64,000 bases of DNA from Sediminispirochaeta smaragdinae DSM 11293. Its GTDB lineage: Bacteria > Spirochaetota > Spirochaetia > DSM-16054 > Sediminispirochaetaceae. Location of the stretch: contig NC_014364.1 in NCBI RefSeq assembly GCF_000143985.1, positions 992,001-1,056,000 of the forward strand, in the 5' to 3' direction. Of the stretch, positions 6,064 to 43,960 are shown in pieces. Made by a program: the position numbers and the translations under genes. The notes beneath the pieces are model-generated. The model saw only the letters and a program-made list of their open reading frames with translations. It was not told the DNA's origin and did no database searches. Position 1 is the first letter of the stretch. Each line of letters starts with the position of its first letter.

Positions 6064-6618
6064 ATGGCGAAAGGGTGGTATGTTCTTCATACCTATTCAG
6101 GGTATGAGAACAAGATCGAACGGTTTCTCCGAAAGATGATGGGGGACGGTGATTTCGGAGATGCGCTTACCGATGTCAAGGTCCCTTCCGAAGAAGTAGT
6201 TGAAGTGAAGGATGGGAAGAAAAAGGTTACAAACCGAAAATTTCTTCCCGGCTACATACTGCTTGAGATGGATCTGCCCGATCGCGGGTGGAAGGCCGTT
6301 TGTTCACAGATCAAGAAAATTCAAGGTGTTACCGGATTCGTGGGAGCGCCGGTGGGTGCGAAGCCGCAGCCAATCTCTTCCGATGAGGCAAAGGCGATTC
6401 TTCAAAAGAGTGGAGAGATTAAAGCCGATCGTACGGTTCGTCCCCGGCAGAGCTTTAGCGTCGGTGAAGTGGTTCGTATTGTTGACGGTCCCTTTGATAC
6501 CTTTACCGGAAATATCGAAGAGGTTAACCTTGAAAAGGGCAAATTGCGGGTGATGGTCGGTATTTTCGGCCGCTCAACCCCTGTTGAAGTTGATTTTCTT
6601 CAGGTTGAAAAAATCTGA
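6064..6618 (+). CDS. nusG: Transcription termination/antitermination factor NusG
   Basis: 184 residues. The N-terminal NGN domain opens with the Trp-Tyr-Val-Leu-His-Thr-Tyr-Ser-Gly-Tyr-Glu motif. A C-terminal KOW domain (about 128-184) contains Gly-Glu-Val-Val-Arg-Ile-Val-Asp-Gly-Pro-Phe. NusG binds the RNA polymerase clamp, suppresses pausing, and couples to Rho or to S10 on the ribosome. It lies in the standard secE-nusG-rplK order. Confidence 0.97.
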   Translation: MAKGWYVLHTYSGYENKIERFLRKMMGDGDFGDALTDVKVPSEEVVEVKDGKKKVTNRKFLPGYILLEMDLPDRGWKAVCSQIKKIQGVTGFVGAPVGAKPQPISSDEAKAILQKSGEIKADRTVRPRQSFSVGEVVRIVDGPFDTFTGNIEEVNLEKGKLRVMVGIFGRSTPVEVDFLQVEKI

Positions 6619-6697
6619 GGTGATATCTCCTCGTTGAGGAGGGTGATGGGAGTTCTCTTGAAAAAAGGGAACGTCAATACCACACAGGAGCATATGT

Positions 6698-7129
6698 ATG
6701 GCAAAGAAAAAGGTAACCACAGTCATTAAGCTGCAGGTTCCTGCCGGCAAGGCTACACCGGCGCCTCCCGTGGGTCCCGCTTTGGGTCCTCATGGTGTAA
6801 GCGCCCCCCAGTTTTGCCAGCAGTTTAACGACCGGACCAAGGAATTCGAGGCCGGTCTTACCATTCCGGTGGAGATTTCCGTTTATCAGGATCGAAGCTT
6901 CACCTTTATTACCAAAACGCCGCCGGCGGCCGTCCTTATCAAAAAGGCATGCGGTATTACCAGCGGTTCTGCCGAACCTCATAAGGTGAAGGTCGCCAAG
7001 ATCACCAGAGAGCAGCTGCAGCAGATAGCAGAGACGAAGATGCAGGATTTGAGTGCCAACGACATTGAAGCGGCAGTCAAAATCATTGCGGGAACGGCAC
7101 GAAGTATGGGTGTAGAGGTGGCGAACTGA
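6698..7129 (+). CDS. rplK: 50S ribosomal protein L11
   Basis: 143 residues, full family length. The N-terminal proline-rich stretch [10 protein letters not shown], which forms the thiostrepton/EF-G contact region, is intact. CAGGAG precedes the ATG by seven bases. The stop codon overlaps the ATG of rplA by one base, so the two are translationally coupled, as in the classical L11 operon. Confidence 0.97.
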
Positions 7130-7812
7130 TGAAGCGTGGAAAGAAGTATGTTCAGTCACGAGGACAGTTCGATCGTCAGCAGCTTTTTTCTCTTGAGGAA
7201 GGTGTTGCAACGGTGAAGAAACTTGCGTATGCAAAGTTCGACGAAACCGTTGAGTTGTCGATTAATCTTAATATCAAGAAGAGCCAGTCGGTGCGTGATA
7301 CCGTGGTTCTTCCCCACCAGTTTACGGCCGAGAAAAAGGTACTTGTTTTTGCCAAAGGCGACAAAGCCCAGGAAGCGGAAGAAGCAGGCGCCACCTATGT
7401 CGGCGATACCGACCTTGTCGAAAAGATCAAGGGGGGCTGGCTCGATTTTGATGTTGCCGTTGCAACTCCCGATATGATGAAGGATGTTGGGCGGCTCGGA
7501 CCTATTCTCGGACGTCGGGGCTTGATGCCTAACCCGAAAACTCAGACGGTTACCTTTGACATTAAGGGTGCTCTTGCCGAGTTGAAAAAGGGGCGTGTGG
7601 AATTCCGTTCCGACAAAACCGGAGTTATTCACCTTGCGGTCGGTAAGGTTTCCATGGAGCCTTCCAAGGTTACCGAGAATATCAACATCATTATGAATGA
7701 AGTCGAGAAGAAGCGTCCCAGTGATGTTAAGGGTGATTTTGTCAAGACGGTTACCGTTTCCTCTACCATGGGACCTGGTGTGAAGATCGATTTCCGCGAG
7801 GCGGGGGTGTAA
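7129..7812 (+). CDS. rplA: 50S ribosomal protein L1
   Basis: 227 residues forming the L1 stalk protein that binds 23S rRNA and moves deacylated tRNA. Family motifs include [10 protein letters not shown] and Ser-Ser-Thr-Met-Gly-Pro-Gly. It starts on the last base of rplK and ends one base before rplJ. L1 usually represses its own operon by binding the mRNA; I did not identify that site here. Confidence 0.97.
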
Positions 7813-7813
7813 G

Positions 7814-8350
7814 ATGGCTGAATACCAGACAAAGATTCAGGACTACAAGGTCGAAGCGGTAGATTCTCTGAAGAGTGAGTTTGAAGGGGTACAGGATTAT
7901 ATCTTTACCAACTATCGGGGGCTTACCGTTGCTCAAATTACCGAGCTTCGGGATAAGCTGCGAAAAGAAAACGCTCTTTTTAAGGTTGTTAAGAACCGTT
8001 TTGCGAAGATTGCCCTTCGTGATATGGAGCAGCCTGCCGTTGATGAGCATCTGACCGGTCCTACCGCGGTTGCCCTTGCAAAGGGTGAGTCCGGTCCTGT
8101 GGCCAAGATCCTTTTTGAAATTGCCAAGGATCTTCCGCTTGAAGTGAAGGGCGGTATCATTAATGGGAATGTTTTTGATGCGGAGCAGGTCGAGGCCTTC
8201 AGTAAACTGCCGACGCGGCATGAACTGATTGCAATGTTGATGGGGACCATGAGGGCTCCGGTGCAGCATGTCGTATATGTTCTGAACGCAGTTCCCACAA
8301 AATTGGTCAGAACGCTTCAGGCGGTTGCCGACAAGAAGCAGGCCGGTTGA
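7814..8350 (+). CDS. rplJ: 50S ribosomal protein L10
   Basis: 178 residues, the base of the L7/L12 stalk. The N-terminal half carries the family pattern Tyr-Arg-Gly-Leu-Thr-Val plus the Lys-Val-Val-Lys-Asn stretch, and the C-terminal helix that docks L12 dimers is present. It starts one base after rplA stops, so it depends on the upstream gene for translation. Confidence 0.96.
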   Translation: MAEYQTKIQDYKVEAVDSLKSEFEGVQDYIFTNYRGLTVAQITELRDKLRKENALFKVVKNRFAKIALRDMEQPAVDEHLTGPTAVALAKGESGPVAKILFEIAKDLPLEVKGGIINGNVFDAEQVEAFSKLPTRHELIAMLMGTMRAPVQHVVYVLNAVPTKLVRTLQAVADKKQAG

Positions 8351-8462
8351 ATGTAGAAACCTTTCGTCGTCGTTGACGGCGAGTTCATATTAATTGTTCG
8401 ACGTTAGTCTTCGAAAGAAGCCATGCTATCGTCGGGCTTAAAAGATTGAAGGAGAAGATAAT

Positions 8463-8852
8463 ATGGCTGATGTGAAGAAAGAGGATATCCTCGAAGCAAT
8501 TGCGAACATGAGTGTTCTTGAGGTGAGCGAGCTCATCACCATGATGGAAGAGAAGTTCGGTGTTACCGCTGCAGCACCCGTTGCTGTTGCCGCTGCCGGT
8601 GCTGCTCCTGCCGCCGCCGCTGCCGAAGAGGAAGAGAAAACCGAATTCGACGTTATACTTAAGAGTGTTGCCGACGGAAAGAAGATTCCCGTCATTAAGG
8701 AAGTTCGAGCAATTACCGGTCTTGGCCTGAAAGAGGCTAAGGATATCGTTGAAGCCGGTGATAAGGCGATTAAGGAAGGGGTTTCCAAGGAGGATGCTGC
8801 TTCCATGAAGGAGAAGCTTGAGGCTGCTGGCGCCGTTGTTGAGGTGAAATAA
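8463..8852 (+). CDS. rplL: 50S ribosomal protein L7/L12
   Basis: 129 residues. An N-terminal dimerisation helix, an Ala-rich hinge (about residues 36-56) and the globular C-terminal domain with Lys-Val-Ile-Lys-Glu-Val-Arg and Gly-Leu-Gly-Leu-Lys-Glu-Ala-Lys are all present. The protein recruits translation factors. A purine-rich SD (GAAGGAGAAG) precedes the ATG. A 112 bp gap separates it from rplJ. Confidence 0.97.
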
Positions 8853-8899
8853 GTCTTTGGCGATCACGTCGTCTCGAATATTGATTTTGTTACCCATTT

Positions 8900-12497: not shown

Positions 12498-15400
12498 ATG
12501 AAAGAAATTCAAGACTTTGACAGTATCATGATACAGCTTGCCTCGCCGGAGCAGATACGAGCCTGGTCCTACGGCGAGGTGAAAAAGCCGGAGACGATTA
12601 ACTACCGAACCCTTCGTCCGGAGAAGGATGGTCTCTTCTGCGAGCGAATTTTCGGGACGACGAAGGAGTGGGAGTGTTACTGCGGTAAGTTTAAATCGAT
12701 TCGTTACAAGGGTGTTATCTGCGACCGTTGCGGTGTTGAGGTTACCCACTTCAAGGTCAGGCGTGAGCGGATGGGGCATATCGAACTTGCCTCTCCTGTG
12801 AGCCACATCTGGTATTATCGCTCTGTTCCCTCTCGCATGGGGCTCCTGCTTGATCTCTCCATTGCTGCTCTTCGTTCGGTGCTCTACTATGAAAAGTATA
12901 TCGTGATCGAGCCCGGTGATACGGACCTGAAGAAGATGGACCTTCTCACGGAGGAAGAATTTAACGAGGCCCGTGAACGGTTCGGAATGAGTTTTACCGC
13001 CGGAATCGGCGCCGAGGCGATTCGCACCCTTCTTGAAGGGCTCGATCTTGATGCCCTTTCGGCCGAGCTTCGTATGAAGATGATCGAGAAAGGGGCAAAA
13101 GCGGACAAACGCCTTTTGAAGCGTATCGAAATTGTTGAAAATTTCAGAGACTCTTCCAACAAGCCCGAGTGGATGATCCTCGATGTTATTCCTGTTATTC
13201 CACCGGAATTACGGCCCATGGTCCAGTTGGATGGTGGAAGGTTTGCCACCAGCGACCTGAATGACCTCTACCGCAGGGTTATCAACCGAAATAATCGTCT
13301 TAAGCGGCTCATGTCGCTTAACGCCCCCGACATCATCATTCGAAACGAAAAACGGATGCTGCAGGAGGCGGTCGACGCCCTTTTTGACAACTCGAAGAAA
13401 AAACGGGTGGTGAAGGGTGCAAGTAATCGCCCCCTTAAATCCCTAAGTGATATGCTGAAAGGAAAGCAGGGCCGTTTCCGGCAGAACCTGCTCGGTAAGC
13501 GCGTAGACTATTCCGGCCGTTCGGTTATCGTCGTCGGACCAAATCTTCGTCTGCATCAGTGCGGGCTTCCCACCAAGATGGCGTTGGAGCTCTTCAAGCC
13601 TTTTATTATGAAGAAATTGGTGGAGCGGGATGTCGTTTATAATATCAAAAAGGCGAAAACCCTCGTGGAGCAGGAGTCTCAGGAGGTCTTTGCCGTTCTC
13701 GATGAGGTGGTAAAGGAGCATCCCGTCCTTCTGAACCGTGCGCCGACCCTGCATAGGCTTGGTATTCAGGCCTTTGAACCGGTGCTTGTGGAAGGAAAAG
13801 CCTTGAAACTGCATCCCTTGGTCTGTCATGCCTACAATGCCGACTTCGACGGCGATCAGATGGCCATTCACGTTCCTCTGACCCAGGCGGCTCAGATCGA
13901 GTGCTGGACCCTGATGCTTAGCAGCAACAACTTGCTGAACCCTGCAAACGGAAGTCCTATTGTTTTCCCGTCTCAGGATATGGTTCTCGGTATTCACTAC
14001 ATGACGAGGATGAAGCCCGGGGATAGGGGCGAAGGGAAGTTTTTCCTTACCTTCGATGAGTTGATGATGGCGGTTGAGGCCCGTTCCGTGGGCTACAATG
14101 CCAAGATTAAGCTCAAAGTCGGTGACGAAGTGGTCGAAACCTGTGCCGGCCGTGCCATCTTCAGCGAGGCGATGCCGGAAGAGGTCGGTTTTGTTAATAA
14201 GCAGCTTGGCGATAAGGAATTACGCTCCCTTGTCGCAGATACCTTTATGGCGCACGGTGCTGCGGTTGCCGTGAAGATGCTCGATTCGATCAAGGATGTC
14301 GGCTTTCGGTATGCCACTGTTTTTGGGGCTACCATCGGTATCGGTGATATCATCATCCCGGAGAAGAAGAAAGGGATGATCGAAGCGGCCAACCAGAAGG
14401 TTCTTGAGATCCAGAATCAGTACCTCCAGGGACATATCACCCAGGAAGAGCGCTATAACCGAACCATCGAGGTGTGGAGTAAAACCAACGAGGATCTTAC
14501 CAACGAGCTGATGAAGGATTTGAAGCAGGATCGAGGCGGTTTTAACCCGGTTCATATGATGGCCGACTCCGGTGCCCGAGGAAGCCGCGCTCAGATCCGT
14601 CAGCTTGCGGGAATGCGTGGTTTGATGGCAAAGCCTTCCGGTGACATTATCGAGTTGCCGATCCGCTCCAACTTTAAAGAGGGGCTCTCCATTATTGAGT
14701 TCTTTATCTCCACCAATGGTGCCCGAAAGGGGCTTGCCGATACCGCACTCAAGACGGCTGACGCAGGTTATCTGACCCGGCGCCTTGTAGATATTGCTCA
14801 GGATGTGGTAACCAACGAGGATGATTGCGGAACCATCAACGGTATCGAGATCAGTGCCCTGAAGGATGGTGAGGAGATTGTTGAATCCCTTGCAGACCGA
14901 ATCGAGGGGCGTTTTACCCTTGAACGGGTAAAGCATCCCATTACCGGCGAGATTATCATCGACGTAAACGAAGAGATAACCAGTGAAATTGCAAAGAAGA
15001 TAGAAGAGATCGGGGTCGAAAAGGTTCGTATCCGTACGGTGCTTACCTGTGAGGCCGAACATGGTGTTTGTCGCAAATGTTACGGACGAAACCTTGCAAC
15101 CGGTCATACCGTCGATATCGGTGAAGCGGTGGGGATCATCGCAGCACAATCGATTGGTCAGCCCGGTACTCAGCTTACCATGCGTACCTTCCATATCGGA
15201 GGTGCCGCCACCAAAATGAGTGAGGAAAACAGGACGGCCCTGAGCTACCCCGTTTTGGTGAAAGAGATTCACGGAAATACCGTTACCCTCGATAGCGGGG
15301 ATGTCCTTTTTACCCGAAAGGGATTTCTTGTCGTTGCAAAGGTAATTAGGGTTCTCGATCTGAAAGATGGTGCGGAGATTGTTATCGCAAATGGGCAGAA

Positions 15401-16775
15401 ACTCTCCGGAGGCGAGGTCCTTGCAAAGCAGGAGGGTGAAGAGCTTCTTGCCAAAGAGGTTGCTTTTGCCTATGTTCCCGAAGAGGGAAAGCGTGTCATC
15501 CTTATTGCCCAGGATCAGAAGCTTGATATCCGCAATGGTGCGGAACTTCTTGTGGGGGAAGGCCATATCGTTCCTGCAAATGAGTCGATTGCAACCTTTG
15601 ACCCCTTTTCCGAACCGATTATTGCCGAGGTCGACGGTAAGGTCCGCTTTGAAGATATCGTTCAGGGAACGACCCTGAAGGAAGAGATAAACGAAGATAC
15701 CGGTAACATTGAAAAGAAAATTACCGAGTTCTCCTTGGAATCGCTTCAGCCTCGTATCGTCATCGAAGATGGAGAGGGGAAGGATCTCGCGACCTATTAT
15801 CTGCCGGGTAACTCCTATCTCAACGTCGAAGATGGTGAAACGGTCCGGCAGGGGCGCGCTCTTGCCAAGTTGCTGAAGGAGAGTGTGAAGACCACCGATA
15901 TCACCGGAGGTCTTCCCCGGGTCGGTGAGCTTTTTGAGGCGCGGCGTCCCAAGAGTGCCGCGGTGCTTGCCCAGATTACCGGTAAGGTCATCTTTAAGAA
16001 TGTTGTAAAAGGTAAGCGCGTTATCGAGGTAGAGGATGATTATCAGCGCTCCTTCAAGCACCTCGTCCCTATGGGAAAGCACATGCTTGTTCGGGATGGA
16101 GACCTTGTTCAAGCCGGGGAGGCGCTGTGCGACGGCGCCACCGATCCCCACGACGTGCTTGATATCCTCGGTGAAAATGCGTTGCAGACCTTTCTTGTCA
16201 ATGAGGTTCAGGAGGTGTACCGGCTCCAGGGTGTAAACATCAACGATAAGCACATCGGTGTGATTATTCGCCAGATGATGCGTAAGGTTGAGATCGTCCG
16301 GGTCGGGGATACCAATTTTATCTATGGTCAGCAGGTTGATAAGTACAAGTTTCACGAGGAAAATCGCAAGGTTATGCGTGAGGGTGGTCAGCCTGCCGTT
16401 GCCAGACCCTTGCTGCTTGGTATTACCAGGGCGTCTCTTAATATCGACTCCTTTATTTCGGCGGCAAGTTTTCAGGAGACCACGAAGGTCTTGACAAATG
16501 CCGCCATAGCTGGTAGTACTGACAACCTGCGGGGTTTGAAAGAGAATGTCATTATCGGACATCTTATTCCCGCCGGAACCGGCATGAAACATTACCGGAA
16601 TATCAAACTGTTTGACGAAAACAGTGAGGATCTGGATGCTTCGGTTCAACAGATTCTTGAACAGAGAAGATTGCAAAAAGAGGCCGAGCGCGAGGCTGGT
16701 CAGGAAGATGTCGATGATGAGGGTGAGGTGAACGAGCCCGAAGCGATTGATCAGAACAATGCCGATGATGAATAG
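12498..16775 (+). CDS. rpoC: DNA-directed RNA polymerase subunit beta'
   Basis: 1,425 residues. The N-terminal zinc site has C60, C62, C75 and C78. The catalytic Mg loop Asn-Ala-Asp-Phe-Asp-Gly-Asp-Gln lies at 447-454 with D449, D451 and D453. The second zinc site is formed by C777, C851, C858 and C861. The bridge helix and trigger loop regions are intact. The C-terminus has an acidic tail rich in Glu/Asp. GAGGAG lies upstream of the ATG. It is co-transcribed with rpoB. Confidence 0.98.
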
Positions 16776-35179: not shown

Positions 35180-35453
35180 TCGTTTGTGGCTATCTATTCG
35201 TGCTTTTTTTCGTGGATTTCAGCAGGCCATGCTTTACAAAGCAACGGCACAAATCGAGTATGAAATTTCCGAGATGGAAAATTCCTTTACGCTTATGCTT
35301 TTTGGAAATTTCATCGGCTTACCCGGGCCCTCAATGCCCTTAACCTTGGAGTTACTACCGGATATGGGCGGGGAGTTGGAACATATGCTCCTTCGGGCGA
35401 GTCAGACGGGAAACGGTTTGAGTGAGCTTGCAAGTATCATGGGGGAGCCGTGA
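35169..35453 (+). CDS. 94-residue conserved-looking protein upstream of ArsA-like ATPase
   Basis: A small protein read from ATG 35169 (a GTG lies one codon earlier). A basic, amphipathic N-terminal part (Arg-Ala-Phe-Phe-Arg-Gly-Phe) is followed by a hydrophobic Phe-Thr-Leu-Met-Leu-Phe-Gly-Asn-Phe-Ile-Gly-Leu-Pro-Gly-Pro segment and a leucine/glutamate-rich end. No signal peptide. Its stop overlaps the ATG of the ATPase by one base, implying fixed stoichiometry and possibly direct binding. I do not recognise the family with confidence. Confidence 0.75.
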   Translation: MKHNRLWLSIRAFFRGFQQAMLYKATAQIEYEISEMENSFTLMLFGNFIGLPGPSMPLTLELLPDMGGELEHMLLRASQTGNGLSELASIMGEP

Positions 35454-36334
35454 TGCCGCGATATCATATTTTCGTGGGAAAGGGCGGTGTCGGGAAGTCA
35501 ACCTGTTCTTGCCTGGAGGCTCTGAGATTGGCTTCTTCGCAGCGTAAAACGCTGCTTGACTCCATGGATCCTGCCCATAATCTCCATGATATTTTTCGGA
35601 CGGAACTGGGGGCAAAGGGGAAGAAAATTCTGCCGACGCTTACCGTTCGAGAATCAGATACGAGCCAGAAGGGGCGTGAGTATATGGCGGAAATTCGTGG
35701 AGAGTTGAAGAATCTCTACCACTATCAGCAAGCCTTGAACATCGACAAATATTTTAACTTGTTGAAATTTGCTCCTGGTATGGAAGAGTACGCCGCACTT
35801 TTGATTCTTCAGCGATGTTTTGATGAGCGTCGCTACGATGAGCTTGTTATCGATACTCCCCCAACGGCGCTCACCATGAAGATGCTGGCTTTGCCGGGGG
35901 TAAATCTTCACTGGATTCACCATTTAAAAGCGATGAGGGAAGAGATACTTCTAAAGAAAAATCGTGTAGCCGAAATACATAGCGAATCTTCCATCGATCG
36001 AGACCATGATCCGATCTTTTCTCGCCTGGTGCGTATGCAAAAGCGTTACGATACGCTTTTGTCGTTGCTATGTGATCAGGAGCAAACCGAAATCGTACTT
36101 GTCCTTAATGAAGACGAATTGAGCTTTTCGGAAAGCCTTCTGATTAAACGCCAATTGGCGGGGTTTGGAATGGAAATCGGCCGAATCATCGTCAATAAAT
36201 ACACTGGTAGGGGTGATTGGACCGGGCGTGTCGCTGAAGCGTTTCCCAACGTGACTATCTTGCAGAATCCGCTTGCTGATGGGCCTCTTACCGGCATAAC
36301 CGTGTTGAACGAACATCTTTCGAAGTTGGCTTAG
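35453..36334 (+). CDS. ArsA/Get3-like anion-transporting ATPase
   Basis: 293 residues of the deviant-Walker SIMIBI class. The P-loop Gly-Lys-Gly-Gly-Val-Gly-Lys-Ser-Thr is at residues 7-15, switch I resembles Asp-Pro-Ala-His-Asn-Leu (about 41-46) and switch II is Asp-Thr-Pro-Pro-Thr-Ala (about 139-144). It is a single-domain protein, whereas ArsA proper has two repeats. No Cys-x-x-Cys or arsenite-binding triad was seen, and no arsenic genes are nearby, so arsenic export is unlikely. ATG 35453 is used because GGGGGAG is six bases upstream. Role unknown; possibly assembles or delivers a membrane protein. Confidence 0.85.
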   Translation: MPRYHIFVGKGGVGKSTCSCLEALRLASSQRKTLLDSMDPAHNLHDIFRTELGAKGKKILPTLTVRESDTSQKGREYMAEIRGELKNLYHYQQALNIDKYFNLLKFAPGMEEYAALLILQRCFDERRYDELVIDTPPTALTMKMLALPGVNLHWIHHLKAMREEILLKKNRVAEIHSESSIDRDHDPIFSRLVRMQKRYDTLLSLLCDQEQTEIVLVLNEDELSFSESLLIKRQLAGFGMEIGRIIVNKYTGRGDWTGRVAEAFPNVTILQNPLADGPLTGITVLNEHLSKLA

Positions 36335-36358: not shown

Positions 36359-36655
36359 TTTCCTGTTTTCCAATGCCGCAGCAGAGGTGGGAAGTTCACG
36401 TGCGCAGCTTGCCCAGAATCTTCTTTCGGACATAGCTGTCTTCGTCCTGCGCTTCAGGCACTCGTTGATAGCATCGAGGCGCAATCCCTGGGGACCAGGA
36501 TAAATATGTCGGTTTTTCCTCTATACGTACTACCGGGTTTCGTAAAAAACAAAATGAACAATTGTTAAAATTTTATTGACGATTGTTATTTACGCCTCGG
36601 AATGCCCATGGTATCCTAAACATAGAACAATAAAAATAGAATGTGAGGTAAAATT
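36335..36655. other. Intergenic region with repeat copy and AT-rich control segment
   Basis: 321 bp. It begins with one copy of the dispersed repeat (36335-36358) and has an 8 bp inverted partner ATCCTGGT/ACCAGGAT at 36343-36350 and 36494-36501, so a ~165 bp element with inverted ends may lie here. The right third is AT-rich, with a perfect palindrome AACAATTGTT (36558-36567) and TTGACG at 36576 ahead of the chemoreceptor gene. No convincing -10 box was found. Confidence 0.45.
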
Positions 36656-38944
36656 TTGGGGAAAAACACGATAGCTTGTATTCTTTCCGGCTCTATTCTA
36701 TTGGCTATAGTTGTTGTGCGTTTACTTCACGCCGGTATAGCGGATCCGATTTTATGTATCCTGACGGCTTTACTTTTTGTAGTCGTCCTCTATGGCTGGG
36801 GAACCTCTTTTATTGCCAACAGACGGCTTGTCCGATATGGCGTGCAGGCCGCCCGTTCTATTCGTAGTCAAGGAATTGCTCCTTTTGAGAGAGCAGTTTG
36901 GGAAATCGCCAGAGGAAATCTTTGTGCCCATGTGGATCTCTCTACTCTTGATGTGACCCCTCCCCCTGGTGCCCTCTACCGATCACTATATTCGGCATTT
37001 TCAGCATCTTCGGATGCAATTGACCGGGCAATGCTCGGTATTGCTTCTCTAACTGCCGAGCCTGTGCGGCGAATTTGTTTTACCGGTATCGACGACTATC
37101 TACACGGCCAACTGATGGGACAGATCGTGGGGGCGCGTCTTGGAGGAGAAGGCGAGATAGCGATTATTGCTGTCAATGAAGAAACCAACTATTCGGTCCT
37201 CCGGGAACGTGGCTTTGTAAATGCACTTCACAATGATTTTTCGAAGATACGAGTTGTTCGGACTGTCTACACAAGCCGTGATCCAAAGCGTGCAAGAGAG
37301 GGGATAAGAAATCTGTTGCAGGATTTTCCGCATCTTGTGGCAGTTTACCAGCTTGAGGAAGCCTCTACCCTGGACAGCCTTGATGAACTTCGGCGTCTGA
37401 AATCTCCGGGAAAGATATCATTTTTCGGACACGGAAAACGAGAGGGCTTTTCCAATTTTTTCCATTCGGGGTACCTAACCACGACGATTACTCAGAGTCC
37501 CTATCTGCAGGGGTATAATCCCCTTGTCTATCTTTTCAATTCGATGGTTTCTTCTTGGAAACCTGAGCATCCTAAGATGCTTATCACGCCGAAGGTCATT
37601 ACCAAAGACAACTTTCGAGAACAGCTGGGACATAGCACAGAAAGTGAAGGCCTTGCCGTGCTTTCGGAAGAGAATCCCTCCAGGGGGCTGAAGCTGGCCT
37701 TTCTGATACCGAAAAATGAGGATTTTTGGCCTCCCGTCTATAAAGGGGCTCATGATGCACGACGGATTCTGGCGGTCAAAAATTGTGAAGTCGATATCAT
37801 ACTACCTCCCAAAGGGAAGGATCACTACGATGTCGATGCCTGGAGGGGCATGATAGAAAGACTTATTGCAGATACGTACGATGGCTTTGCCATTCCTCTT
37901 TTCAGCGATCGTTTGATCCCTGTCATAAACAAGGCCGTGGACAAGGGGCTTCTGGTCGTTACCTATAATCAGGAACCTTTCAGCCTTAGAGGAATGATAC
38001 TTGAAGTAGAAGAAAAGGCCGACCGTGTGGCAAAGATAGGAGAAAAGTTGCGACGTGGGGCGAGTGATTCGGAATCGGCAACTGTCGACATTCAGGATGC
38101 CCTTTCTTCAGTACAGAAGGTTTTGGATTCTCAGCAACAAGAGGTGGAACAAGCACGGCTTGCAATGGATAATCTTTCCTCACTTGTCGGTATAGCTGCC
38201 AGAGAAACTCACTCGGCAGGAAGTCGCGCCGAACAGGTTGCCGCCGCCGCTGTCGGAGGACGAGCGGCTATTATGGCGACTAAGAAGGCCGGCGATCGCT
38301 TGACCTCTTCTACAAGAGCAACACAAAAGCTTATCAACGACCTTGCAAAACGTTCGCGTGAGATAAGGACGATCATCGGCGCCATAGAAGATATTGCGGC
38401 CCAGACCCATTTACTTGCAATGAACGCCTCGATTGAGGCTGCACGAGCCGGAGAGGCCGGTGCCGGGTTTTCCGTTGTGGCGCATGAGATTCGTACCCTG
38501 TCGGAAGGTTCAAGTAGTGCTACGGAAAAGATTACCGCTTTGTTGGAAGAGGTCTTGAATTCGGTGGAAAGTGCCGAAACACATGCTGATGAGGGTGTCG
38601 AGGTTGTCCGTTCCAGTAATGAACAGGTATCAGCGGCGGAGAATCATCTTTCCGAGATAAATGAAGCGGCCTCTGTGAACCGCACAAAGATGGAAGAGGT
38701 CTTGAATGCTCTTTCCGAAATGGAGACCTCGGCACAGAGCGTTGCTACCACTATTCAATCGGTAATGGAAATCCACCACCGAAACAGCGGCCAGTTCGAT
38801 CGCGTACGTCTTTCAAGCGATAAACTGAGCAAACAGATTGTTGCGGTGGCACGGCGTGCAGAGGAGCTGTCGACTCTTGCAAATTCCGAAAAAGAATTGG
38901 TCTGCTCCTTTGAACTTGAGGAGAGCAATAAAAAAAAGGCATAA
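36656..38944 (+). CDS. Methyl-accepting chemotaxis protein with internal PBP-like sensor
   Basis: 762 residues from a TTG start with GTGAGG seven bases upstream. Two closely spaced membrane helices (5-27 and 31-50) are followed by a helical linker (55-135). A region resembling the C-lobe of LacI-type periplasmic binding proteins (about 136-315) comes next, then one like the N-lobe (345-440), and then a classical receptor signalling domain. Its tip (about 579-626) has [14 protein letters not shown]. With no further membrane helix, the ligand domain should be cytoplasmic. No chemotaxis genes adjoin it. Confidence 0.88.
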
Positions 38945-40318: not shown

Positions 40319-41566
40319 CTATCTTGCTGCTCTCGGGACCGTGACACTGCCGTCAAGCAGAAAGAGAATTGTGGCATCCCTGCCTTTTGTTTTAAGGGCC
40401 TCGTCAATGGCAGCTTGCAGATCGTGCTCCGGGATGATGAAAAAAGAGCTTAACAGTTCATCCGGAAGCTGGGTATAGGCATGGACCTCTCCCCGAAGAA
40501 ACACCTCCGCCATCTTTCCCGCTTTGTGATACCCAAGTTTGTACTCTTTTTGAATTGTTTTGAGTACCCCCTCGGGCGTATCAGAGGAAGAGAGAAGGCG
40601 TGCAAAGGCCTCCTCTCCGATTCCGTCACGGCAGCTTGCGACAAGGATCATCATCCCGCCGTCCTTCATAGCCAGTTTGCCGTTGTCGATTGCCTTCTGT
40701 GCCTGGTAGAGGTCTATATCCATTGGGTATTTGGCGACGCTTACCACGATATCCGCCCGACTGGGGATATCCGCCACAAAAATTTCATCGGCCTTGTCGA
40801 TGGCCTGATAAAAGGACGCATTAATATCGCCGGCGGTTACCGCATAGATGTTGTGGCTTTTGTCCAGAACCGTCATGATCGCAAAGATCTCTTTTTTTAC
40901 CACGGAGAGTGCATCGATCATGTCCTCGTGCACCGGGTTCCCTTCGAGATTGAGCGCCTTTGCTCCGGGGTGTAAGGCATGACGATGGTTCTGTTCGATG
41001 GTGTGGTAACTGGCTATTCCGGGAAGAAATCCCTTTCGTCCACCTGTATAGCCTGCGAAGTAGTGGGGTTCCACCGATCCTATAACGATAATGCTGTCGG
41101 CATCGACACCCATCTTGTTTACGTACATTTCGGTACCGGCCCTGCTGGTCCCGAGGTAGACCATCTCATCTTTTCGTGCATCATGGGCATGGATTTTGTT
41201 CCGGTAGCGTTCGAACAGTTCATCTCCGAATATCTGCCGATACTCCTCTTCCGTGGGGCCTCTATGGACTCCCGTTGCAATGATGAAGGAAGGATCAACC
41301 TTCGCCAGTGCCGGGGCGATGGCGGAGAGAACCGCACGTGTGGGGGTCGGGCGAGTCTGATCGTTGACAATGACCAGTAAGTTCTTCGCTCCGGCTATAA
41401 AGGCTTCGAATGGCTTGCTCTCCACAGGGGAGGCAATGGCTGCATTCACGATACTTGCAGTATCCCCCTTGGCCCGAAGGTCATTCGGTTCGACTACTGC
41501 AAGGACATTTTTATCCGGAACAGTGACGGAAATGGTATCCTTCAAATAGGGAAGTGCTACTTCCAT
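40319..41566 (-). CDS. larA: LarA-like nickel-pincer racemase/epimerase (DUF2088)
   Basis: 415 residues from ATG 41566; a longer reading frame upstream lies within pgk and is rejected. The start overlaps the last ten bases of pgk. Residues matching LarA active-site positions are visible: His101, His168 in Glu-Pro-His, Lys178 in Gly-Gly-Arg-Lys, and His194. The Asp-Gln-Thr-Arg-Pro-Thr motif lies at 69-74. LarA interconverts D- and L-lactate with a nickel-pincer nucleotide cofactor made by LarB/C/E, none of which is in this window. Paralogs act on other 2-hydroxy acids, so the substrate may be lactate, malate or another acid. Confidence 0.85.
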   Translation of the reverse strand: MEVALPYLKDTISVTVPDKNVLAVVEPNDLRAKGDTASIVNAAIASPVESKPFEAFIAGAKNLLVIVNDQTRPTPTRAVLSAIAPALAKVDPSFIIATGVHRGPTEEEYRQIFGDELFERYRNKIHAHDARKDEMVYLGTSRAGTEMYVNKMGVDADSIIVIGSVEPHYFAGYTGGRKGFLPGIASYHTIEQNHRHALHPGAKALNLEGNPVHEDMIDALSVVKKEIFAIMTVLDKSHNIYAVTAGDINASFYQAIDKADEIFVADIPSRADIVVSVAKYPMDIDLYQAQKAIDNGKLAMKDGGMMILVASCRDGIGEEAFARLLSSSDTPEGVLKTIQKEYKLGYHKAGKMAEVFLRGEVHAYTQLPDELLSSFFIIPEHDLQAAIDEALKTKGRDATILFLLDGSVTVPRAAR

Positions 41567-42816
41567 TTCTTCCCGGCCTTTTCCATGGCGGCAATGAGCG
41601 GCAACTTTTTGCCTGAAAGGAAGCGAACCATTGCTCCGCCGGCGGTGCAAACATAACTGTAATCGCTCATATTGGTAAAGCGGGCCGCAGCGTTTACGCT
41701 GTCTCCACCCCCCACTACCGTGTAGCCGGGTGCCGATGCTATTGCCTGCCAAACCCTTTGGGTCCCTTTTGCAAATTTATCATCTTCGAATACCCCGGCA
41801 GGGCCGTTGACGAAGACAGTGCCTGCCGCTTTAATTTCCGCCTCAAAGCGCTCTATCGTTTTTGTTCCAATGTCGAGGAACAGTGCTTCTTTCGGTAACG
41901 CTTCGATGCTTAGCTCCTGCCTTTTGCCGTTTTCTTCGTAGGCAAGGTCGTCGGGGGCGATGATTCTTCCCGGATACTCTTTCAAATATTTGGCCGCAGG
42001 CTCGATGAAAACATCCAGACCCTTGTCTGCAAGGAATTTGTCGGTGGCTTTTCCAAGCCTTCTGCCGGAAGCGATGAGCATCACCTCACCGGTAACACCA
42101 CAGGCAAGGATTTTATCTGCTGTACCCGATGAAAGAACCTGTTCCATCATCCCGAAGGCGTCTGATATCTTTGCTCCGCCGAGAACGAAGACCGAAGGAT
42201 GTTCGGGACTTTTCATTACCTTGGTCAGCGCGGAGACCTCTTTAAAGAAAAGCGGTCCTGCGGCGGAAGGAAGAAGCTCCTGAAAGGCAACCATGCTTGG
42301 GGCGTTTCTGTGTGCTGCAGCAAAAGCGTCGTTAATATAGAGGTCGAATAAGGGGACAAGAGAGCGAACCAAATAGGTATCCAGCATCTCCTCTGCCTTC
42401 AGTTTTACCGCATTCTCAAAGGTTGATATCTCTTCGCAGAGGTAGCGTAGGTTGCCGAGGAGGATGGCCTCGCCTTCGGCAAGTTCCTTTACCTTCTTCT
42501 GGGCCGCCGGGCCGCAGACATCATCGATATAGCCGACTGGCCGTCCGAGACCGTCACTCAGCTTTTGAGCATGTTCTTCCAGTGGGATCAGGTTTTGATA
42601 ATCGAGGGTATCACCCTGGTGCGCGATCATTGCGAGTTTTGCCCCATGATCAAGGAGCCAGGAAATGGTCGGCAGACTTTTCTGTATGCGGTTTTCGTTT
42701 ACGATTCTCTTTGTTTTCGGATCGATGGGGCTGTTGATATCCACGCGTAAAAGCACCCGTTTGCCTTTGACGTCGAATGCCTCCATCGGCTTAAATCCAA
42801 GACTTACTTCAGCCAT
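41557..42816 (-). CDS. pgk: Phosphoglycerate kinase, archaeal-like
   Basis: 419 residues. It transfers phosphate between 1,3-bisphosphoglycerate and ADP. The N-terminal pattern Arg-Val-Asp-Ile-Asn-Ser-Pro-Ile (residues 24-31) replaces the usual bacterial Arg-Val-Asp-Xaa-Asn-Val-Pro and, together with the Ala-His-Gln-Gly region, resembles archaeal PGK. The C-terminal nucleotide loop Val-Val-Gly-Gly-Gly-Asp-Ser is present. It follows the type II GAPDH gene by 76 bases and overlaps larA. A pair of archaeal-type enzymes for consecutive steps suggests joint transfer. Confidence 0.92.
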   Translation of the reverse strand: MAEVSLGFKPMEAFDVKGKRVLLRVDINSPIDPKTKRIVNENRIQKSLPTISWLLDHGAKLAMIAHQGDTLDYQNLIPLEEHAQKLSDGLGRPVGYIDDVCGPAAQKKVKELAEGEAILLGNLRYLCEEISTFENAVKLKAEEMLDTYLVRSLVPLFDLYINDAFAAAHRNAPSMVAFQELLPSAAGPLFFKEVSALTKVMKSPEHPSVFVLGGAKISDAFGMMEQVLSSGTADKILACGVTGEVMLIASGRRLGKATDKFLADKGLDVFIEPAAKYLKEYPGRIIAPDDLAYEENGKRQELSIEALPKEALFLDIGTKTIERFEAEIKAAGTVFVNGPAGVFEDDKFAKGTQRVWQAIASAPGYTVVGGGDSVNAAARFTNMSDYSYVCTAGGAMVRFLSGKKLPLIAAMEKAGKKWK

Positions 42817-42892
42817 GGTACGACTCCTAAAATGGGGCCCTGCCGGGCCCCTTCATGTAAAACGGTACGGCAAAAAAGCCGATCCTCTCCCT

Positions 42893-43915
42893 TTAACCCC
42901 TGGCCTTCATTCCGAGATATTCGTTGGTCTTTGCTACACCTTCGTCCCGGCTTGTCTGCATCTTCAACGCGGCACGGATTGCATCCATATTTTCGGGGAT
43001 AACAACCGCTTCCTGAGGAATGTTGATGGCGAACATAATATCGTCACCGCTGTTTACAATAGTCTCTTCCCACACAGCAATCTCGTACATATCACCGCGG
43101 GGATGGCCCAAGTCCCTGGCGTATTTAAAGAGGCTTGCATTTCCAAGGAAGCCATCCGCCAGACGTACCACACGGATACGGGGATGTGCCTTGAAGATTT
43201 CGAGGAGCTCCTCTTTGTGCATCTTCTTCTTGGTAGTTACCACGGGGGTGATGATATGTCCGTGGGTCACCGGGGTATGGATGAGAATTCCTGTTGCATC
43301 GACATGGGGCATGATGGTCATAAGGTCGAGGGCCTGATGGTTCGGCGCTTCTGCTACCTGCAGGGCATTTGTCAATCCCCTATGATAGTCACCTGGGTCC
43401 GCAACCCTTCGGATGATGGTAATGGCCGTTTTAACAACACCGACGGCCCTGTCGATGGCGTCGATGGCCCTGATGAGCCCTGTTGTGTTGCAGCTGGTGA
43501 GCTTGAGGTAGTCAGCCCCAATACCCTTTTCGTAGTTCGCATAGCCGTGGAAAAAGACATCTGCAACATTGTTTTTTTCTCCACCCTGGAATACCGCCTT
43601 GGTGTTGTATTTTTGGTAGATCTCTTTGTTCTTTGCTCCGACACCGGCATTGGTGGCATCCAGCATGATATCCACTTCCTGGACAAGTTCTTCGAGGGTT
43701 CCGCTAACCGGAATTCCCACATCATCCAGAAGGTTTCTCTTTTCCGGTACCGCCGTAAAAAGTTTATAGGGCATTCCTTTTTCCGCAAGGGCCCTAACGG
43801 GAAGGGTGGGGGCAACGTCGGCGACCCCGACCAGCTCCATATCTTTCTGCCGTGCAACTCCGTCGGCCAATCTCTGGCCAATAACTCCGTATCCGGCTAC
43901 TCCAACCTTAACCAT
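42893..43915 (-). CDS. Type II (archaeal-type) glyceraldehyde-3-phosphate dehydrogenase
   Basis: 340 residues from ATG 43915, which has AGGAGG seven bases upstream; eight extra codons to 43939 lack support. The N-terminal Rossmann motif Gly-Val-Ala-Gly-Tyr-Gly-Val-Ile-Gly-Gln-Arg and the catalytic Ser-Cys-Asn-Thr-Thr-Gly-Leu (Cys142) are those of the archaeal class, not of bacterial GapA (Ser-Cys-Thr-Thr-Asn). It oxidises glyceraldehyde 3-phosphate with NAD(P). First gene of the operon, behind a near-consensus promoter. Confidence 0.93.
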   Translation of the reverse strand: MVKVGVAGYGVIGQRLADGVARQKDMELVGVADVAPTLPVRALAEKGMPYKLFTAVPEKRNLLDDVGIPVSGTLEELVQEVDIMLDATNAGVGAKNKEIYQKYNTKAVFQGGEKNNVADVFFHGYANYEKGIGADYLKLTSCNTTGLIRAIDAIDRAVGVVKTAITIIRRVADPGDYHRGLTNALQVAEAPNHQALDLMTIMPHVDATGILIHTPVTHGHIITPVVTTKKKMHKEELLEIFKAHPRIRVVRLADGFLGNASLFKYARDLGHPRGDMYEIAVWEETIVNSGDDIMFAINIPQEAVVIPENMDAIRAALKMQTSRDEGVAKTNEYLGMKARG

Positions 43916-43960
43916 GTGTAATCCTCCTATTAATCTCAATAATTTGCCTGTTTGTCTGAT

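Follow-up and report, generated by a model that had tools for sequence, protein, structure and literature searches.

A membrane-anchored chemoreceptor of Sediminispirochaeta smaragdinae with a circularly permuted, putatively cytoplasmic binding-protein domain

A chemoreceptor gene was analysed in a 64,000-nucleotide stretch of the Sediminispirochaeta smaragdinae DSM 11293 genome (the window). Its product is probably a membrane-anchored MCP in which a permuted type I binding-protein sensor sits between a HAMP-like linker and the signalling helix, a grading that applies to the best explanation as a whole. The lobes of the sensor have not simply changed places; the domain is circularly permuted, starting with N-lobe strand 5, continuing with the C-lobe and ending with the rest of the N-lobe. 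Related receptors form a patchily distributed family that is scattered over several bacterial phyla.

Gene and domain architecture

The gene (36656..38944, + strand) encodes 762 residues from a TTG start, with a GAGGT motif at 36645–36649, six bases upstream of the start (by eye), and matches the Pfam families MCPsignal and Peripla_BP_4. The segment 36656..36820 (+) encodes two N-terminal membrane helices, which correspond to a modelled helix of residues 2–25 and the first part of a helix of residues 31–85. The HAMP-like linker follows (36821..37051, +), comprising the second part of helix 31–85, a connector and helix 106–132. Linker residue Gly87 is invariant in 52 sequences. The Pfam HAMP family matches seven of 15 family members at E ≤ 1 (best 8.6e-5) and does not match the window protein. 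No HTH family was found by Pfam in residues 1–133 at E ≤ 1, unlike in LacI-family regulators.

The first part of the sensor, with N-lobe strand 5 and the C-lobe (residues 139–321), is encoded at 37070..37618 (+), and the second part, with N-lobe strands 1–4 (residues 339–440), at 37670..37975 (+), ending just past Asn438. The output helix starts immediately behind the permuted domain (residues 444–488; 37985..38119, +). The MCP signalling domain (residues 541–705; 38276..38770, +) matches PF00015 with an E-value of 3.8e-30 and carries the conserved hairpin tip motif (by eye). The S. smaragdinae genome contains ten CheW-domain matches.

Order of the sensor halves and predicted structure

Positions 90–246 of the Peripla_BP_4 profile match residues 134–289, and positions 6–89 follow at about residues 352–440. 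Both parts are significant separately (1.5e-18 for the C-part alone and 4.7e-8 for the N-part alone), and the canonical order, N-lobe then C-lobe in one stretch, is absent from the sensor in the Pfam comparison. Among the 71 Peripla_BP_4 matches listed in the organism's own genome, only that of the window ORF runs from C-part to N-part. A canonical-order HMM, built from proteins with the N-lobe first, was applied to 65 family members including the window protein and placed the C-part ahead of the N-part in every one. The arrangement recurs across several phyla and is not a single oddity. Since each half scores alone and all members agree, a chance or annotation artefact was rejected.

The preliminary description had read the sensor as a LacI-type C-lobe followed by an N-lobe. 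The order is borne out by Pfam, the HMM and AlphaFold2, but the exchange is not a clean swap, as the cut falls between N-lobe strands 4 and 5. In the window protein it corresponds to RbsB residues 91/93, in the loop between these strands and directly after the D89 position. D89 is the ligand position of strand 4 in RbsB, whose sequence was retrieved for this comparison.

AlphaFold2 modelled residues 123–463, from 54 sequences, as a single bilobed fold (pLDDT of 91.2 and pTM of 0.89). A second model, of residues 1–489 (pLDDT of 88.6) comprises helices 2–25, 31–85 and 106–132, the sensor and an output helix from residue 444. In the list of structural matches from VIA-align, the model residues spanned by at least a fifth of the rows were 2–209. 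The canonical entry 2qvc_A aligned over exactly this range (Z-score of 24.8 and r.m.s.d. of 4.2 Å over 206 residues), and 3g1w_B aligned over 188 residues (Z-score of 25.6 and r.m.s.d. of 1.9 Å); the canonical entries 5ocp_A, 2rjo and 4ry8_B covered a wider range, yet only 204–209 of their residues were aligned. The permuted protein TpMglB-2 (6bgc_B) aligned over model residues 5–307, with 286 residues (Z-score of 21.2 and r.m.s.d. of 3.7 Å), compared with at most 212 in all other rows listed. TpMglB-2 is thus matched over both lobes and the canonical proteins are not. Foldseek aligned 372 columns with 5jx2, 350 with 6bgd, 251 with 5er3 and at most 226 with the other entries listed. With the model of residues 1–489, TpMglB-2 (6bgc_A) aligned over 352 columns at 5.1 Å, and canonical matches of about 280–320 columns have r.m.s.d. 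values of about 13–17 Å and are meaningless.

TpMglB-2 of Treponema pallidum (Tp0684; PDB entries 5JX2, 6BGC and 6BGD) is described as a proposed 'type Ic' binding protein, in which the first three N-lobe strands are relocated to the C terminus by a cut before strand 4 (PMC4990184). It resembles the window family in having a type I bilobed fold permuted within the N-lobe, with an alignment that spans both lobes. The two differ in the cut, which lies before strand 4 in TpMglB-2 and after strand 4 in the window family, one strand apart. They also differ in setting: TpMglB-2 is a secreted ABC-transporter lipoprotein without a signalling domain, whereas the window protein combines two membrane helices with an MCP fusion. 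Five 380-residue proteins of the Treponema group (L058, L060, L063, L065 and L066) were considered as TpMglB-2 and rejected, as their N-lobe comes first. The best Foldseek match, a Rhodopirellula baltica binding protein (PDB entry 5ER3, whose title names it as an ABC transporter protein), aligns in sequence without a break across the junction of C-lobe and N-lobe, which suggests that 5ER3 may itself be permuted; its cut would lie elsewhere.

Distribution, topology and ancestry of the family

A scan of genome contigs yielded 60 loci, 53 of which hold a whole permuted sensor. The 65 proteins tested are the window protein, the products of these 53 loci and 11 relatives (L010–L019 and L044); near-duplicates, such as L017/L018 and L069/L070, were kept. 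The seven loci set aside are L098, L119 and L120, which are cut by contig ends, and L124–L127, which have another architecture or are fragments. L045, L046 and second copies in genomes G052 and G055 are members outside the 65. Alignment A4 excludes nine of the 60 loci. The family occurs in Spirochaetes (Treponema among them), Chloroflexi including Leptolinea tardivitalis, Bacteroidetes, Melioribacter, KSB1, Acidobacteria and other assemblies. Counted as ORFs of more than 700 residues that span both lobes, it is present in 11 of 98 genomes of the organism's own group, its own genome included, and in eight of 296 at the level of the phylum. In the class of Leptolinea, none of 149 genomes besides the query carries it, and one 378-residue ORF matches part of it only; of 147 genomes in the phylum to which the L081 genome belongs, one has the family besides the query genome.

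Output HMMs assign an MCP domain to 61 of the 65 members and a GGDEF diguanylate cyclase domain to the other four (L071, L072, L091 and L094), which form one clade in the FastTree tree; the assignment of L071 was also made by Pfam. Locus L068 encodes a tandem pair of permuted receptors.

The preliminary description had placed two membrane helices within the first 50 residues and a cytoplasmic sensor at residues 136–440. A hydropathy scan agrees, to within a few residues: it marks segments 6–24 and 27–45 of the window protein, none inside or behind the sensor and thus no missed helix between sensor and signalling domain. In the family, whose topology counts, like the output counts, are HMM-based, the sensor is free of hydrophobic segments in all 65 members, and in 64 none lies behind it; the exception, L123, has a marginal one in the signalling part. 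Ahead of the sensor, 49 members have two hydrophobic segments, 15 have one and L096, whose N terminus seems cut, has none. The 49 two-helix members have on average 2.94 Lys and Arg residues before the helices, 0.96 between and 2.73 after them, although in eight of the 49 the count in the intervening loop equals or exceeds that in the segment after the helices. Nine of the 15 one-segment members have 3–6 Lys and Arg residues in the next 15 residues and six have none; in these six, a second helix may lie below the threshold. Because the MCP output is cytoplasmic and no helix intervenes, the sensor should be cytoplasmic too, as judged from the sequences.

For the FastTree tree, the lobes were rearranged to canonical order. 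All 65 permuted proteins form one clade (support 0.763), which joins five secreted spirochaete binding proteins (L024, L026, L020, L047 and L021) with a support of 0.995. L048 and the Clostridial domains come next outward (0.94), followed by LacI-type regulators among others (0.963). The closest canonical relatives are the secreted spirochaete proteins, with LacI-type proteins further out. Because the permuted proteins form one clade beside these secreted proteins, the tree favours a single permutation event with a secreted binding protein as its starting point. The sensor begins with a T-x-E-P motif that recurs as N-x-E-P at its end, with an overlap of only a few residues. The doubled EP motif is only suggestive of a duplicated crossover loop such as would arise from tandem duplication and trimming. 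In two loci of the nearest canonical binding proteins, URO-D-family genes (L129, 9842–11107; L131, 420–1667) adjoin the ABC genes; they may hint at the ancestral substrate and name no ligand.

The relatives in the tree differ from the permuted family in order and setting. The five spirochaete Peripla_BP_4 proteins have the canonical order and a signal peptide (by eye), with ABC-type genes adjacent in the loci inspected. Clostridial chemoreceptors (L124 of Caloramator quimbayensis, 6573–8870, L125 and L126, the last assigned by reading) likewise combine an MCP with a domain of the binding-protein type whose position places it in the cytoplasm, but this domain stands behind the MCP and in canonical order, with profile positions 7–254 unbroken in L124. 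LacI-family regulators (L049, L052, L064 and L067) share the cytoplasmic Peripla_BP-type sensor and differ by their HTH domain, canonical order and more distant place in the tree.

Binding cleft, gene context and proposed signalling

Ligand-contact positions of RbsB were compared across the 65 members. The position of R141 is Arg in all 65 (Arg183 in the window protein) and that of F214 is His in all 65 (His259). Gln occupies the Q235 position in 58 members (Gln280), Asn the D89 position in 63 (Asn438), and Trp or Phe the F16 position in 64 (Trp358). The D215 position is Asp in 58, Glu in three and Gly in four, including the window protein. By these counts, the cleft is retained yet altered relative to RbsB. 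Because Gly replaces Asp at the D215 position in its clade (four of 65), the window receptor may bind another ligand or bind weakly.

At locus L132, an RbsA-like ATPase gene, a BPD_transp_2 (RbsC-like) permease gene and the receptor gene (13987–16487, − strand) stand in a row, and the receptor start overlaps the permease stop (ATGA). The RbsA-like label stems from tblastn grouping and reading, and the permease was assigned by Pfam BPD_transp_2. An FGGY kinase and a DeoR regulator are encoded in the vicinity. Such coupling to a transporter is clear in this one relative only. An FGGY kinase gene also lies a few kilobases off, on the opposite strand and without operon structure, in nine Chloroflexi loci (L097, L100, L102, L105, L106, L108, L109, L115 and L123). 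Elsewhere, the receptor genes have diverse neighbours (helicase-like, aldo/keto reductase, GH30, SpoIIE, YceI and deaminase), which indicate no clear ligand.

No sugar-transport gene was noticed beside the window gene among the neighbours searched, which were part of the total. An ArsA-type ATPase (35450–36334; Pfam E-value of 1.1e-45) is encoded upstream, at a distance of 322 bases from the receptor gene, and follows two small ORFs to which Pfam assigned no clear family; no arsenic genes were noticed. Downstream, at 40319–43939 (− strand), is a row of genes that, by eye, we take to encode a lactate-racemase-like protein, phosphoglycerate kinase and an archaeal-type glyceraldehyde-3-phosphate dehydrogenase.

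S. smaragdinae uses several sugars and polyols (PMC3035371). Because of the transporter, FGGY kinase and DeoR context of L132, the putative ligand is most likely a carbohydrate-like metabolite or polyol inside the cell, which is a best guess. The internal sugar or metabolite sensor suggested in the preliminary description is plausible.

A farther-reaching interpretation, in which we have moderate confidence, is that these cross-phylum cytoplasmic receptors arose when a secreted sugar-binding protein was internalised by permutation, so that the ligand end of strand 4 became the root of the output helix, and that they drive MCPs and diguanylate cyclases and report imported carbohydrate directly. 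In the model that we regard as probable overall, the ligand would be a small polar molecule, presumably a sugar, a polyol or a metabolite related to these, which would bind between the lobes once it had entered the cell. The cut after N-lobe strand 4 roots the output helix about six residues behind the ligand-contact position Asn438, and should also bring the ends of the domain close together, allowing the sensor to fit into a helical stalk. As the cleft closes, the output helix would be bent or rotated, and its motion would change CheA activity through the MCP tip. The cell would thereby steer by what it had already taken up.

Two alternatives concern what the sensor responds to. The permuted domain could do without a small ligand and instead dock a partner protein, for example a transporter or a metabolic enzyme, that reports nutrient uptake. 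The Asp lost at the D215 position in the window clade and the start–stop coupling of the L132 receptor to an ABC permease would suit such docking, but we consider it unlikely, given that Arg183, His259, Gln280, Asn438 and Trp358 are kept in most of the 65 members across several phyla, as fits a cleft in use. It is also improbable, to a similar or slightly greater degree, that energy or membrane state provides the main signal by way of the membrane helices and the HAMP-like linker, with the binding domain only tuning it. The two N-terminal hydrophobic segments of most members agree with this idea; against it, members with a single helix exist, and the mean column identity is 29% in the linker (15 sequences) versus 53% in the sensor (54 sequences).

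The other two alternatives question the architecture itself. An extracytoplasmic sensor, reached through an overlooked helix or an inverted topology, would be in keeping with the secreted nature of the nearest canonical relatives. It is very improbable in view of the hydropathy scan of the family, the necessarily cytoplasmic MCP output and the segment rich in Lys and Arg that follows the last helix in most members. Least credible of all, with an almost negligible probability, is a chance fusion that left two unrelated lobes side by side: the same canonical proteins (for example G019:C45, G048:C70 and G006:C31) are matched by both halves, in reversed order, the model is one bilobed fold, and nothing was found in favour of such a fusion.

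Natural permutation of the type I fold is already known from TpMglB-2, a secreted protein and the one well-studied, solved case that we found in print. In a limited literature search that included few subscription papers, no binding-protein domain that is permuted or cytoplasmic was found in a chemoreceptor, and consultation of PMC13401364 yielded nothing on this point. Here, the permutation occurs in receptors that share a conserved cut site of their own, should place the domain in the opposite compartment and have two kinds of output. Two questions thereby become testable: by what means a Venus-flytrap domain that lies in line with a coiled coil relays its signal, and whether internal sugar guides the movement of some bacteria. 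The family also offers a natural model for biosensors based on permuted binding proteins. If these receptors do report imported carbohydrate directly, metabolism-dependent taxis would have a molecular route that needs no periplasmic sensor.
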